A DNA stretch of 36,817 nucleotides from a virus: the IMG/VR virus record IMGVR_UViG_3300034104_003218, positions 1 through 36,817 of that record, one strand, 5' to 3'. Both the position numbers and the translations under genes were made by a program. The notes under the pieces were generated by a model. It worked only from the letters and a program-made list of their open reading frames with translations. It searched no databases and had not been told where the DNA came from. Of this stretch, positions 27,950 to 36,461 are shown one piece after another; position 1 is the first letter of the stretch, and every line of letters starts with the position of its first letter.

Positions 27950-28207
27950 TTAAGATTTGATGCGAAGGCCAAACTGTAAATCAAACCAATCAAATGTTTG
28001 TTCAGCCTTTGCTTTGTTAAATTTAAAAATCTTTTTTAACAGAGGAATAGCATAACGCTTGAATTCCTCATGTTGTTCTGGTGTCATGGTCCAATTGAAG
28101 TACCACATGTCATCATCTAGTGTATCCACTAGTCTCTTACCAACCATATCGAGTTGATACTCGATTAAATGTCTGGTAATGTTAGCTCTGTTTACTTTAG
28201 CTTTCAT
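27950..28207 (-). CDS. Hypothetical protein, 85 residues
   Basis: This is a helical protein with many aromatic residues (DMWYFNWTMTPEQHEEFKRY, then AKAEQTFDWFDLQFGLRI). It overlaps the polymerase gene by 4 nt (ATGA), so it is translated directly after DNA polymerase and may be an accessory to it. No family is recognised. Confidence 0.7.
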   Translation of the reverse strand: MKAKVNRANITRHLIEYQLDMVGKRLVDTLDDDMWYFNWTMTPEQHEEFKRYAIPLLKKIFKFNKAKAEQTFDWFDLQFGLRIKS

Positions 28208-30165
28208 TCAAATAGATTTAATTGATTAGGAATAAAGACTGTTTTAATTCTTTTGCCTTCTGTAGAAATTTTGGTGATAATCCTGTTTGCTTTCTCAATA
28301 TAGTAATCATAATTGACATTATCAGTTTTACTGCTTTTTGGCAAGAAATTACAAACTTTACACACCCATTCACCTGCTTCTATCTGACTGATAGCTGCAG
28401 CTCTGGTTTGACACTCTGGATTCTTAATCTTAAAGATTTTATCTCCTGTGTTTGATACATAATATCGTATCAATTTGTTGTAAACTGTAACTTCTCCTGT
28501 AGCTCTATTAGTTCCCTCATAATGGAAACTTCTTGTAGCTTTCTGTCTTATACAAAAATCATATAGATTATTATGATTTCTAATAGTCTCATCAACAGGA
28601 ATACCACTAACAAAGTAATGTTCCAAAGCAATGGGAACAATCCTTGCACTCTTGTTCTTATGCAGTTCAAAGTCAGTAAGGAAATCACCTTTCTTTTTAA
28701 TTTCTCCATTGGTCATAATTGCTAAATAATCATTTACAGTACTAAAGATAATCTTGGAATAGTCAGTTCTTTCCAACTCATACTGAGTGATATCACACCA
28801 CCATTGATTGATCTCATACATTAAAGGGATTAGGTCTTTCTTAATCTTGATAGTTACACCATCCGTGTTTGCAGAGATCACTTGTATGCCATTGGTTTCA
28901 TATCTTTCAATAAGCATCATCAGACTAAGCTCACCAGTTATAGTGGTGAACATAGTTAACTGCCTATCATATATCCAATTTTGCATATCAGATGACTTAC
29001 CATATACAGAGTTAACTGCAAGTTTAAGTGCTCCAACAATTCCTTTAATCTTCTTATCCTTTTTTGCAAAAGGTTTAAGTTCCAATCTTTTCTCAAACAT
29101 CTGTTTGTACCCACGTAGAAACTCTTTTCCTAAGTGAGCAGGGAACTTTCCATTGTTGATAATAATGGCTGGATAATAGGAACTAACATCCCAATCGATT
29201 ATCTCATAGTCTTCATCAGCTTCAAATATCTTAGGACTATTCTCTGTGTGAAGACCACCTTTCATAAAAGAATATACATTTCCATAGAAATTTATATGCT
29301 CTTTGAAATCATCTTGCAGACCAAGCTGCATCTTATTAATTTTCTTTAAGAACTCTTTAAGTTGAGGAGTTTCAAATTTTACATATTTTGCAATGCAATT
29401 TTTTACATCTATACTCTTTCTGAAATATCCTTTTCTAGGAAGTTCTTTATACTCAATACCTTTTTCTTGGCAATAATACTTCTTAATCATCTCATCACCT
29501 ATCTTACTATCTGAATAGTTAAGACATGGAATACCAAACTCTTCTTCAATATCTCTACGAAGTTCTATTTGGTTGTTTCCTTTGTATAAAGGATGATCTG
29601 TATTTCCTGTTGTTATCTTATAGAATTCATAAGTTGCATCAACATCATTAAAACAATAGTCTACAGTAAGATCTACATCTTCCTTAGTCATATCTGTTTT
29701 ACTGTGATGTATAGGCATCTCTTCAATGTTCTCTAGATCCATCTCAAACTCAAGCCTTTTTAAAGAGACCATTCGATTTTTATTGTTGTAGTGCATCAAA
29801 GTAAATAAGTCTATTATTTTAAAACTTAAATCACTTTCTCTATATTGTGGAAAAACTTCATAATTTGCATCGTGTATTGTATCTTGAGCAACTTGTGCAA
29901 TTTTTGCACATACTTCAAGACCAGATAATTCATGCCATTTTTCATAATTTCTAAGTACATACTCAATCACTTGACTATCAAATCTTAATCCATTATAAGT
30001 TACATGGTAATGATCGTTTTTTTCTTCAAAGAATCTTGCCATACGATCTAATGTATTTTTCCATTTACTAACTTCAAACTTATGATACTTGTTAGTCTGA
30101 GGATCATAACAAAGACATAAAAAGTATTCTGCCATTGTTTCTATATCTGTTATTATAACATTCAT
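28204..30165 (-). CDS. Family B DNA polymerase with 3'-5' exonuclease
   Basis: The 653-residue protein has an intact exonuclease domain: Exo I DIET (7-10), Exo II YNGLRFDSQ (57-65), Exo III YCFNDVDA (170-177). The polymerase domain follows: motif A DWDVSSYYPAI (324-334), motif B KLAVNSVYG (381-389) and motif C SANTDGV (431-437), where the usual DTDS is NTDG with the second Asp kept. A TPR-like insertion of protein-primed polymerases is not obvious. It is the phage replicative polymerase. Its start codon overlaps the stop of a GIY-YIG homing endonuclease by 4 nt, so its translation may depend on that gene. Confidence 0.93.
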   Translation of the reverse strand: MNVIITDIETMAEYFLCLCYDPQTNKYHKFEVSKWKNTLDRMARFFEEKNDHYHVTYNGLRFDSQVIEYVLRNYEKWHELSGLEVCAKIAQVAQDTIHDANYEVFPQYRESDLSFKIIDLFTLMHYNNKNRMVSLKRLEFEMDLENIEEMPIHHSKTDMTKEDVDLTVDYCFNDVDATYEFYKITTGNTDHPLYKGNNQIELRRDIEEEFGIPCLNYSDSKIGDEMIKKYYCQEKGIEYKELPRKGYFRKSIDVKNCIAKYVKFETPQLKEFLKKINKMQLGLQDDFKEHINFYGNVYSFMKGGLHTENSPKIFEADEDYEIIDWDVSSYYPAIIINNGKFPAHLGKEFLRGYKQMFEKRLELKPFAKKDKKIKGIVGALKLAVNSVYGKSSDMQNWIYDRQLTMFTTITGELSLMMLIERYETNGIQVISANTDGVTIKIKKDLIPLMYEINQWWCDITQYELERTDYSKIIFSTVNDYLAIMTNGEIKKKGDFLTDFELHKNKSARIVPIALEHYFVSGIPVDETIRNHNNLYDFCIRQKATRSFHYEGTNRATGEVTVYNKLIRYYVSNTGDKIFKIKNPECQTRAAAISQIEAGEWVCKVCNFLPKSSKTDNVNYDYYIEKANRIITKISTEGKRIKTVFIPNQLNLFE

Positions 30166-30911
30166 TTTTCTATCTTTAATGTTCTTAAATATGTTTTTCT
30201 TCCTATAGAAGATGTTATTGTAGCAATATGTACATTTAATGTATCTGATAAGTTTCTAGAATTAATAGTTCCTATAAATCTATGAAAGCAATCATATATT
30301 TTATATTTACCATTACTTGACTTGATTTGATTAAATATATTATTCCAATAAGCTTCTACATCTTCTGCTGATTCATTTTCATCAAGAAATATAAACTTAC
30401 TAGATTCTGAATCAATCAAGTTCTTTTTAAAAAACTTTACGTTCATCTTTCTATGAATGTTAGGAGCTGCAGTATTAAAATGTTCAGCACATTTATATAA
30501 ATCAGTAAAGCTTTGGTAGAACTCTCCATAGATAGTATAAACCATTACTTTTCTTTTAGGTGCAGAATTGCTCATTCTTACTTTAGTTTCATCAGAAACT
30601 GCACGTTTTCCTTCAGGACAAGTAGGATCAATGTTATATCCATGTTCTCTATTGTGGGTATCTAACATATTACACCAATAGTTTTCTTGAGAATAAATAT
30701 ATTCAGGGTTACATTCTTCAAGTGTTTCAAATATAAAGTTATGTTCTCCGTGTTTATTAAAAGAACTTTGTAGATGGGTATTATGATGAATACCCACTCT
30801 AAGTTTCCATTTATGCATACATAATCTATTATATAGATCTATAGTTGCACCAATGTAACTTTTATTTGTAACTACATTTTGAATAATGTAAACTCCTGAA
30901 CTCTTTCTCAT
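30162..30911 (-). CDS. GIY-YIG homing endonuclease upstream of DNA polymerase
   Basis: In this 249-residue protein the GIY-YIG domain is clear: GVYIIQN (6-12), KSYIGAT (17-23) with its Arg in DLYNRLCMHK, and the catalytic Glu in YSQENYWC near residue 77. The C-terminus has NUMOD-like repeats, KRKVMVYTIYGEFYQSFTDL with a helix-turn-helix and a second at GKYKIYDCFHRFIGTINSRN. It is free-standing, not in an intron, and occupies exactly the space between a Bacteroidota-type promoter and the polymerase start codon. Confidence 0.92.
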   Translation of the reverse strand: MRKSSGVYIIQNVVTNKSYIGATIDLYNRLCMHKWKLRVGIHHNTHLQSSFNKHGEHNFIFETLEECNPEYIYSQENYWCNMLDTHNREHGYNIDPTCPEGKRAVSDETKVRMSNSAPKRKVMVYTIYGEFYQSFTDLYKCAEHFNTAAPNIHRKMNVKFFKKNLIDSESSKFIFLDENESAEDVEAYWNNIFNQIKSSNGKYKIYDCFHRFIGTINSRNLSDTLNVHIATITSSIGRKTYLRTLKIEK

Positions 30912-32322: not shown

Positions 32323-32637
32323 TTATTTTTTTGTTATTAAGGTTAATGTTTTTTGATGTCCTTCAAGAGCATCTTCGTAAGATGTGTATCTTTCTTGATA
32401 TTGATCGTTTTCTCCTCCAAATATCATAGTTTCCCACAACACTGGTTTACTACTACCATAAGCATGATCTAATCCAAGAAACACTGTTGACACACGAACC
32501 TCATCACCATTGAGATCTGTTAGTTCGTCATATGCAACTCTTTTTCTATTTGGATTGTCTTCCATCCACTGTGCTGCTTCTAAATATGGTTTATGAATAG
32601 GTTTGTGATTGTTGTCTAATATATACCACTTACTCAT
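32323..32637 (-). CDS. Conserved phage protein with LGLDHAYG / WETMIFGG motifs, 104 residues
   Basis: The segment VSTVFLGLDHAYGSSKPVLW followed by ETMIFGG and YTSYEDALEGHQKT is a pattern I know from many unrelated phages and prophages, always without a known function. The fold appears beta-rich with a C-terminal helix. It overlaps the upstream gene by 4 nt. Confidence 0.75.
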   Translation of the reverse strand: MSKWYILDNNHKPIHKPYLEAAQWMEDNPNRKRVAYDELTDLNGDEVRVSTVFLGLDHAYGSSKPVLWETMIFGGENDQYQERYTSYEDALEGHQKTLTLITKK

Positions 32638-35744: not shown

Positions 35745-35767
35745 AAAGCCTCCATTACAGAGGCTTT
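35745..35767 (-). terminator. Terminator-like hairpin after the RNA block
   Basis: Minus strand AAAGCCTC and GAGGCTTT pair over 8 bp with loop TGTAATG, followed by TCTTATT. It would end transcripts carrying the tmRNA and tRNA-like element. Confidence 0.75.
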
Positions 35768-35932
35768 AATAGGACTTTCTCCCTTGGGAGATGTCAATTG
35801 TTGAGATTGGCACTAGTAAAACCCAAACCATAAAGTACTCAACTCCTTCTCTGCGTGGAAAGGACTTAACATTCGTGGTATGCAAACTACCCAATGTCTG
35901 TTACTGTACTATTTGCATCAAGTAACTGCTGT
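35768..35932. other. Non-coding stretch between terminator and tRNA-like element
   Basis: I find no convincing gene here; the longest minus-strand frame with a start is under 25 codons. Two hairpins are visible: GAC-A-TCTCCC-AA-GGGAGA-AA-GTC at about 35789-35812 and a GTTACT/AGTAAC pair at about 35901-35927. This may be a third structured RNA or a spacer. Confidence 0.4.
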
Positions 35933-36032
35933 GATTGAGACAGGATTTGAACCTGTAAGTGTATTGAAGCTTCGCAGGCATACACAACCATTTGTTGCTT
36001 ACTTCTTGCGTTTACCATTTCGCCACTCAATC
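35933..36032 (-). tRNA. tRNA-like element, anticodon not assignable
   Basis: A perfect 7 bp acceptor stem (GATTGAG/CTCAATC), a D-arm (GCG-AAATGGTAAA-CGC) and a canonical T-arm (ACAGG-TTCAAAT-CCTGT) are all present at the right spacing; the opening TGGCGAAATGGTAAACGC resembles tRNA-Leu. The 51 nt between D-arm and T-arm cannot be folded into a normal 5 bp, 7 nt anticodon arm, and are 12 or more nt longer than in class II tRNAs. A GTGTAT/ATACAC pair may be an extended variable arm. It may be a tRNA with an insertion, a decayed tRNA or a tRNA mimic. CCA is not encoded. Confidence 0.5.
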
Positions 36033-36039
36033 ATTAAAT

Positions 36040-36066
36040 CCCTACACACTTGAGACATGTGTAGGG
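36040..36066 (-). other. Hairpin between tmRNA and tRNA-like element
   Basis: CCCTACACA and TGTGTAGGG form a 9 bp stem with a 9 nt loop, not followed by a T tract. A processing site between two stable RNAs is the simplest reading. Confidence 0.5.
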
Positions 36067-36106
36067 AAATGGTAAAAGTTATGTACAATGCAAAAGACAT
36101 AACTAG

Positions 36107-36461
36107 TGGAGGCGCTGGGTACTGCCCCCAGGTCTTGTTCAATTTTAATTTTACAATTTTATACAGCTTATTTAGGGTCAAGCTAGGCTTAACGATCCAC
36201 CACTCTATTTAATCTAATAGAGAAATCTTTATTCAATTTAGGCTGCTAATTCAAATTCAACAATGTCATTTGATTTAACTTCAGTACCACCATTTAAAAT
36301 GTTGTGTACTACAGTCATGTTAGCTTCTACTTGTGCGTTGTCTCCTTGAGATACTACACTATTTGTGTTTTTGCCATTTAATTAAATTCACCTTAGTTTA
36401 CAGTTATCTCTCTGGCTGAATTGTAAAATCTATTATTGCCAATCAATGCTGTTTCGCCCCC
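36107..36461 (-). ncRNA. ssrA: tmRNA (SsrA)
   Basis: The 355 nt fit a tmRNA. The ends pair as an acceptor stem: GGGGGCG (36455-36461) with CGCCTCC (36108-36114), discriminator A at 36107. Helix H2 is a perfect 11 bp pair, ATTTTACAATT (36419-36429) with AATTGTAAAAT (36148-36158). The T-arm is CTGGG-GGCAGTA-CCCAG, with an unusual loop that I associate with alphaproteobacterial-type tmRNA, as also the GGGGGCGAAACAG start. The tag frame ends EFELAA and stop (36238-36240), the LAA end expected for ClpXP targeting. The frame is open from 36375, giving 35-45 codons depending on the resume codon; known tags are mostly shorter. CCA is not encoded. It would rescue stalled ribosomes. Confidence 0.85.

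Follow-up and report, generated by a model that had tools for sequence, protein, structure and literature searches.

tmRNA is a bacterial RNA that rescues stalled ribosomes, and its G3.U70 pair directs charging with alanine. A C-terminal AA on the tag is the usual recognition end for ClpX. Group I introns in the tmRNA T-loop are already known. The literature lists 79 unique phage tmRNA sequences (PMC11915505), and 402 phage genomes with tmRNA and 133 unique structures (PMC9004378). The standard tmRNA (RF00023) is a one-piece molecule with a G3.U70 acceptor stem, a T-arm, a long helix H2, a PK1 segment, and a tag that ends in AA before the stop codon. Tags of 10 aa are the most frequent in a curated database (PMC11915505). 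The alphaproteobacterial tmRNA (RF01849) has a permuted gene. The two-piece tmRNA of the methylophage Melnitz is likewise permuted and alpha-like over the whole gene, and its sequence points to a bacterial group other than that of the host (PMC9004378). One tmRNA was counted in the Cellulophaga phage Calle (PMC8776804). No paper on a long-tag family, or on a one-piece tmRNA with an alphaproteobacterial-type elbow, was found in the open PubMed Central literature.

The window analysed here is a 36,817-nt stretch of viral DNA (IMGVR_UViG_3300034104_003218, positions 1 to 36,817). Its minus strand carries a one-piece phage tmRNA (Table 1), which the preliminary description had placed at 36107–36461, correct within 3 nt. 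A 1-kb search with RF00023 matched the gene over the full length of the model (1–374), with 29.5 bits and an E-value of 6.8e-10. Covariance models and ARAGORN had been suggested as checks; the first gave this full-length match, which missed the gathering score of 47, and the second called no tmRNA anywhere in the window. The proposed tmRNA identity was borne out by the acceptor stem, the H2 helix, the open frame, the RF00023 match, and a family of relatives. The window tmRNA is far beyond chance, because at least 119 further contigs share its PK1 signature and close relatives score 54–95 bits with RF00023.

Table 1. Features of the tmRNA gene and its downstream flank in the window.
Feature	Position	Strand	Basis
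One-piece phage tmRNA gene, 358 nt	36104..36461	(-)	RF00023 match, reconstructed ends, identical copy in strain L129
5' acceptor strand GGGGGCG	36455..36461	(-)	7/7 pairs with 36108–36114
D-loop AAACAGCATTGATTG, 5' end AAACAG of alphaproteobacterial type	36440..36454	(-)	Commonest alphaproteobacterial D-loop start AAACAGGATCGA
Helix H2, 5' strand	36419..36431	(-)	12 pairs with 36147–36158
PK1 region CAGCCAGAGAGATAACTGTAAACTAAGGTGAA, family signature	36387..36418	(-)	At least 119 viral contigs, 0 genome contigs
Tag reading frame, 45 codons + TAA, GKNTNSVVSQGDNAQVEANMTVVHNILNGGTEVKSNDIVEFELAA	36238..36375	(-)	Frame, core, and ending kept in 79 complete distinct tags
Covarying hairpin module 3' of the tag, GATTT-hairpin-TGGTGGA...TTGACCC	36175..36231	(-)	61/110 relatives; model R1, 70 bits
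Helix H2, 3' strand	36147..36158	(-)	Pairing with 36419..36431
T-arm CTGGG-GGCAGTA-CCCAG, non-TTCRA loop of alphaproteobacterial type	36115..36131	(-)	RF01849 alignment; unique among 110 one-piece relatives
3' acceptor strand CGCCTCC	36108..36114	(-)	7/7 pairing with the 5' strand
Hairpin directly 3' of the tmRNA	36040..36066	(-)	Read from the sequence

The gene has most parts of a standard tmRNA in the standard order. The acceptor stem is 7 bp long and contains G3.U70, and the gene length includes ACTA where CCA would be encoded. H2 consists of 12 contiguous pairs, GATTTTACAATT/AATTGTAAAATT; the helix itself had been recognised in the preliminary description, with a length of 11 bp that falls one pair short. 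The PK1 segment ahead of the tag, a putative pseudoknot, is strongly conserved in sequence, and the hairpin module 3' of the tag is presumably a pseudoknot domain. The T-arm stem is fully paired (5/5). The TTCRANN-type T-loop of the standard tmRNA is absent from the window tmRNA, whose loop is GGCAGTA; since this loop is standard in alphaproteobacterial tmRNA, its presence does not exclude a tmRNA. The remaining differences from RF00023 are the score below the gathering cut-off and the tag of 45 aa.

The 5' acceptor lies upstream and the 3' acceptor downstream, which is not a circular permutation and agrees with the earlier reading of the gene as phage-encoded and not permuted. A permuted gene built with the downstream tRNA was considered, since RF04321 gave a match (E = 0.057) that joins the T-arm to the 5' end of the tRNA and contains a large insertion. 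This reading was rejected because the true 5' acceptor is upstream and pairs 7/7. All 358 nt of the tmRNA are unchanged in the contig L129, and a nearby gene (32323–32637) shows only 91% protein identity between the two. L129 is thus a second strain, and the tmRNA is not a single-assembly error. The hairpin directly 3' of the gene is likely an ancestral terminator, because the relative L109 has the same hairpin followed by a T run.

The family signature in the PK1 region is CAGAGAGATAACTG(n0-5)AAACTAAGGTGAA. It was present in at least 119 IMG/VR contigs and absent from all 84,980 prokaryote genomes searched. Named members of the family are Flavobacterium psychrophilum phages (Fpv1 and others), without tmRNA annotation there, the crAss-like Cellulophaga phage phi14:2, and the Cellulophaga phages phi38:1, phi40:1, and Calle_1. 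Among the records inspected, a tmRNA was annotated only in Calle, and the family is mostly unannotated. Like the window tmRNA, that of Calle_1 (MT732432) carries the PK1 signature and a long tag belonging to this family, GNNTNAVNAQIEANMEAVNAILNLEVAVGV; it differs in its ordinary TTCGATT T-loop, and its record states no tag. These sequences form a large, little-described tmRNA family in phages of Bacteroidota-type bacteria, with isolates that infect Flavobacterium and Cellulophaga.

A pairing search gave both ends for 113 of 126 sequences, a few of which are duplicates of one phage. Three of the 113 (L041, L044, and L115) exceeded 600 nt, with ends apparently misplaced, and were set aside, leaving 110 relatives. 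The acceptor stems covaried, with 12 pair combinations among 72 non-redundant relatives, and G3.U70 was kept in all 72 of these, for which ends with a recognisable acceptor stem were found. H2 also covaried, with a mean of 10.4 bp with its own partner against 7.8 bp with swapped partners. ARAGORN detected most of the close relatives and gave a truncated tag for many relatives. No SmpB gene turned up in 16 phage records, of which several are fragments; the tmRNA is therefore presumed to depend on the SmpB of the host.

The tag of the window tmRNA resumes at the GGC codon at 36375 and ends in ELAA-TAA, and a second possible start, GGA, lies ten codons after GGC. The unusual length and the ELAA end had been noticed beforehand, and the range of 35–45 codons given then covers both starts. 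In the family, the tag was read from the codon after A-N-[TC], 18–21 nt past the start of AAGGTGAA. The tag frame was open in every locus. Including truncated loci, 82 tag strings were obtained, of which 79 are complete distinct peptides of 24–49 aa; 74 of these 79 end in AA. The median open length was 35 codons in the tag frame compared with 6 and 11 in the other two frames. In similar, non-independent pairs, dN/dS was approximately 0.52 in the tag frame, a moderate value, versus 1.04 and 1.37 in the others, and most codon changes in the tag frame of such pairs were at third positions. The long tag is kept throughout this family of phage tmRNAs; it is neither a quirk of the window gene nor an insertion peculiar to it, a possibility raised earlier for the tag loop. 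A six-codon tag at the usual resume position (GCA AAA ACA CAA ATA GTG TAG) had also been put forward; it is present in the sequence, and it was rejected because its frame is not conserved (in the family, the median stretch without a stop is no more than 11 codons, against 35 for the tag frame).

An alignment of 45 tags showed that Q15, A18, N19, and M20 are invariant and that V23 and the final A are nearly so. The conserved helical core is Q-[VI]-x-ANM-xx-V, and its ANM is missing from one complete tag (L039). Synonymous codons for the core Q, A, and N vary across the family, which shows that the constraint acts on the protein. AlphaFold predicted a single helix at residues 10–28 with a mean pLDDT of about 78, and the mean over the whole tag was low (66). 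The tag had no Pfam match.

The elbow of the window tmRNA looks as if it came from another bacterial phylum. Its T-loop GGCAGTA together with the D-loop AAACAG occurred only in the window and L129 among the 110 one-piece relatives; all others with ends found had a TTC-type or closely related T-loop. The D-loop pattern of Table 1 was also confined to these two, with no other viral contig carrying it. RF01849 aligned with the T-arm and 3' acceptor almost without mismatches. At least 119 genome contigs contain GGGGGCAGTACCCRGCGCCTCCAC, with titles nearly all alphaproteobacterial or unspecified Proteobacteria and one Marinimicrobia, and the commonest D-loop start among the fetched alphaproteobacterial genomes was AAACAGG. 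The 3' 29 nt of the window tmRNA match the alphaproteobacterial sequence at 27/29 positions, whereas the phage mean was 17.9 and the best phage 24. The 5' 21 nt gave a mean of 16.1 matches to alphaproteobacterial sequences, compared with a phage mean of 9.3 and a best of 16. The loops also have the alphaproteobacterial combination of T-loop GGCRGTA with D-loop AAAYAG or AACYAG. Nearly all of 120 viral loci with a GGCAGTA-type T-arm have a downstream 5' acceptor motif, as in a permuted gene, and only L129 among them is one-piece with the family PK1. The resemblance to alphaproteobacterial tmRNA at the T-loop and 5' end, suspected earlier, is thus real. It is confined to the tRNA-like elbow, since the body and tag are of the Flavobacterium/Cellulophaga-phage type; in Melnitz, by comparison, the whole gene is alpha-like.

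Two relatives show where the elbow differs. L109, whose DNA polymerase is 84% identical to that of the window, is nearly identical to it in the downstream flank (ACTAGTTATGTCTTTTGCATTGTACATAAC) and related to it in the upstream flank, and L059 shares 95% identity over nt 36–267 of the RNA. L059 has an ordinary elbow, as does L109, with T-loop TTCGAGT and D-loop ACATGGAATTGAT. These comparisons argue that the elbow was exchanged in place. On our reading, the window tmRNA has the body typical of its family and has had its tRNA-like elbow replaced. The D-loop and T-loop would have been replaced together, most likely through recombination between the phage gene and the tmRNA gene of an alphaproteobacterium. 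Because the alphaproteobacterial gene is permuted, with the arms in opposite order, one simple crossover cannot deliver both arms; we infer that two exchanges, or one exchange and compensating mutations, were needed. The altered T-loop might make the window tmRNA immune to group I introns of the T-loop.

We consider it very probable that the locus is a functional-looking tmRNA of a tailed phage, with a Bacteroidota host by gene context, an extended tag, and a swapped elbow. During infection, host AlaRS may charge the phage tmRNA with alanine via G3.U70, and host SmpB may bind it and allow entry into stalled ribosomes. The SmpB of a Bacteroidota host would have to accept an alphaproteobacterial-type elbow. 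Translation would then restart at GGC, adding alanine and the 45-residue tag before the TAA stop, and the ELAA end could be recognised by ClpXP-type proteases. The likely role of the RNA is thus trans-translation with an extended degradation tag. The conserved amphipathic helix of the tag, QVxANMxxVxxIL, most likely offers a protease adaptor an additional place to dock or enhances the degradation of truncated proteins.

Other readings of the tag and the elbow were weighed against this account. The long frame could be an ordinary small-protein gene inside the RNA, started at the ATG of ANM and not, or not only, used as a tag. The ATG is invariant in 78 of the 79 complete tags and a tag needs no Met codon, but the frame is open and conserved as protein upstream of the ATG to the resume codon in every locus, as the fixed Q, A, and N with their varied codons illustrate. 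The start of the tags 18–21 nt after a fixed PK1 position and the tag-typical AA end also speak against such a gene, and we regard it as very improbable. If the frame is a tag, its conserved internal helix, much longer than a usual tag requires, might sequester or redirect, hiding truncated proteins from host proteolysis while the phage tmRNA competes with that of the host. In favour of this, the phage DS6A tmRNA, of which only the tRNA-like part is left, is reported to inhibit host-type tmRNA (PMC11915505). The AA end kept in most complete tags is, however, the one ClpX usually recognises, and sequestering seems distinctly unlikely compared with the degradation signal preferred here.

For the elbow, convergent drift by point mutations would make the alphaproteobacterial match coincidental, possibly in a decaying, inactive tmRNA. 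The outer T-stem pair of the window is still phage-like (T-A, as in L109), so that the replaced stretch would be very short, and the pieces of the alphaproteobacterial gene are in permuted order. The match to the alphaproteobacterial type nevertheless covers every one of the seven bases of the T-loop as well as AAACAG in the D-loop, the T-stem and acceptor are perfectly paired, the tag and PK1 are intact, and the RNA is identical in L129 despite the diverged neighbouring gene. Drift therefore appears doubtful to us, and an elbow swap is preferred. A more speculative idea, which we hold to be rather unlikely, is that the family-wide helix gives a dedicated adaptor or protease a phage-specific handle, and that one lineage swapped its elbow, perhaps evading a host defence or an intron directed against the ordinary T-loop.

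That a large family has conserved a tag several times longer than usual, and that the helical core is fixed across phages from several genera, suggests a function in the tag itself and offers a clear peptide for testing. As a natural experiment, the exchanged elbow can show which combinations of D-loop and T-loop are acceptable to SmpB and AlaRS. Current tools miss or mistranslate such tmRNA genes.

Weak Shine-Dalgarno signals and A-rich leaders are known for Bacteroidota. Of 50 starts in the window, only 3 had a Shine-Dalgarno-like motif ahead of them (mean of 1.1 after shuffling), and the leaders were A-rich. Together with the Flavobacterium and Cellulophaga hosts of the relatives, these features point indirectly to a Bacteroidota host, and an alphaproteobacterial host is not favoured. 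The rIIA and DNA polymerase proteins have matches in isolate phages, at distances too great for naming the host.

Several further elements were observed in related or compared phages. The hairpin module also occurs about 60–80 nt upstream of the tmRNA, outside it, in Lactococcus 949-like phages (L006:1497–1552 and L008:1502–1532; model R1, 45.9 bits, E = 3e-10). The gut crAss-like phage cr128_1 has an apparent unannotated tmRNA of the same kind (L005:1204–1871), with a short tag that on visual inspection reads GNTYRAAA; its group I intron (1602–1871) is probably in the T-loop. Group I introns 3' of the tag, probably also in the T-loop, were found in two long-tag members (L041:3998–4221 and L099:1524–1739). 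A related phage contig contains a Hatchet ribozyme (L104:3304–3454, 75 bits). The tmRNA annotated in the Maribacter phage Panino (L370:27557–27889) looks like a false call; it is without the family signature, and two annotated tRNA genes overlap it.

Directly 3' of the window tmRNA, a tRNA-like gene (35932–36032, minus strand; RF00005, 43 bits) is enlarged by 34 nt around the anticodon, with no ordinary anticodon loop evident and no ARAGORN call. It is followed by a conserved non-coding stretch (35745–35930, minus strand; GCAGTTACTTGATGCAAATAG...CATTGGGTAGTTTGC...) without an Rfam match, which ends in a terminator-like hairpin (35745–35767) and is also present 3' of the tmRNA in L121. Elsewhere in the window, a GIY-YIG endonuclease gene (30162–30911, minus strand), possibly encoding a homing endonuclease, adjoins the DNA polymerase gene (28204–30165).
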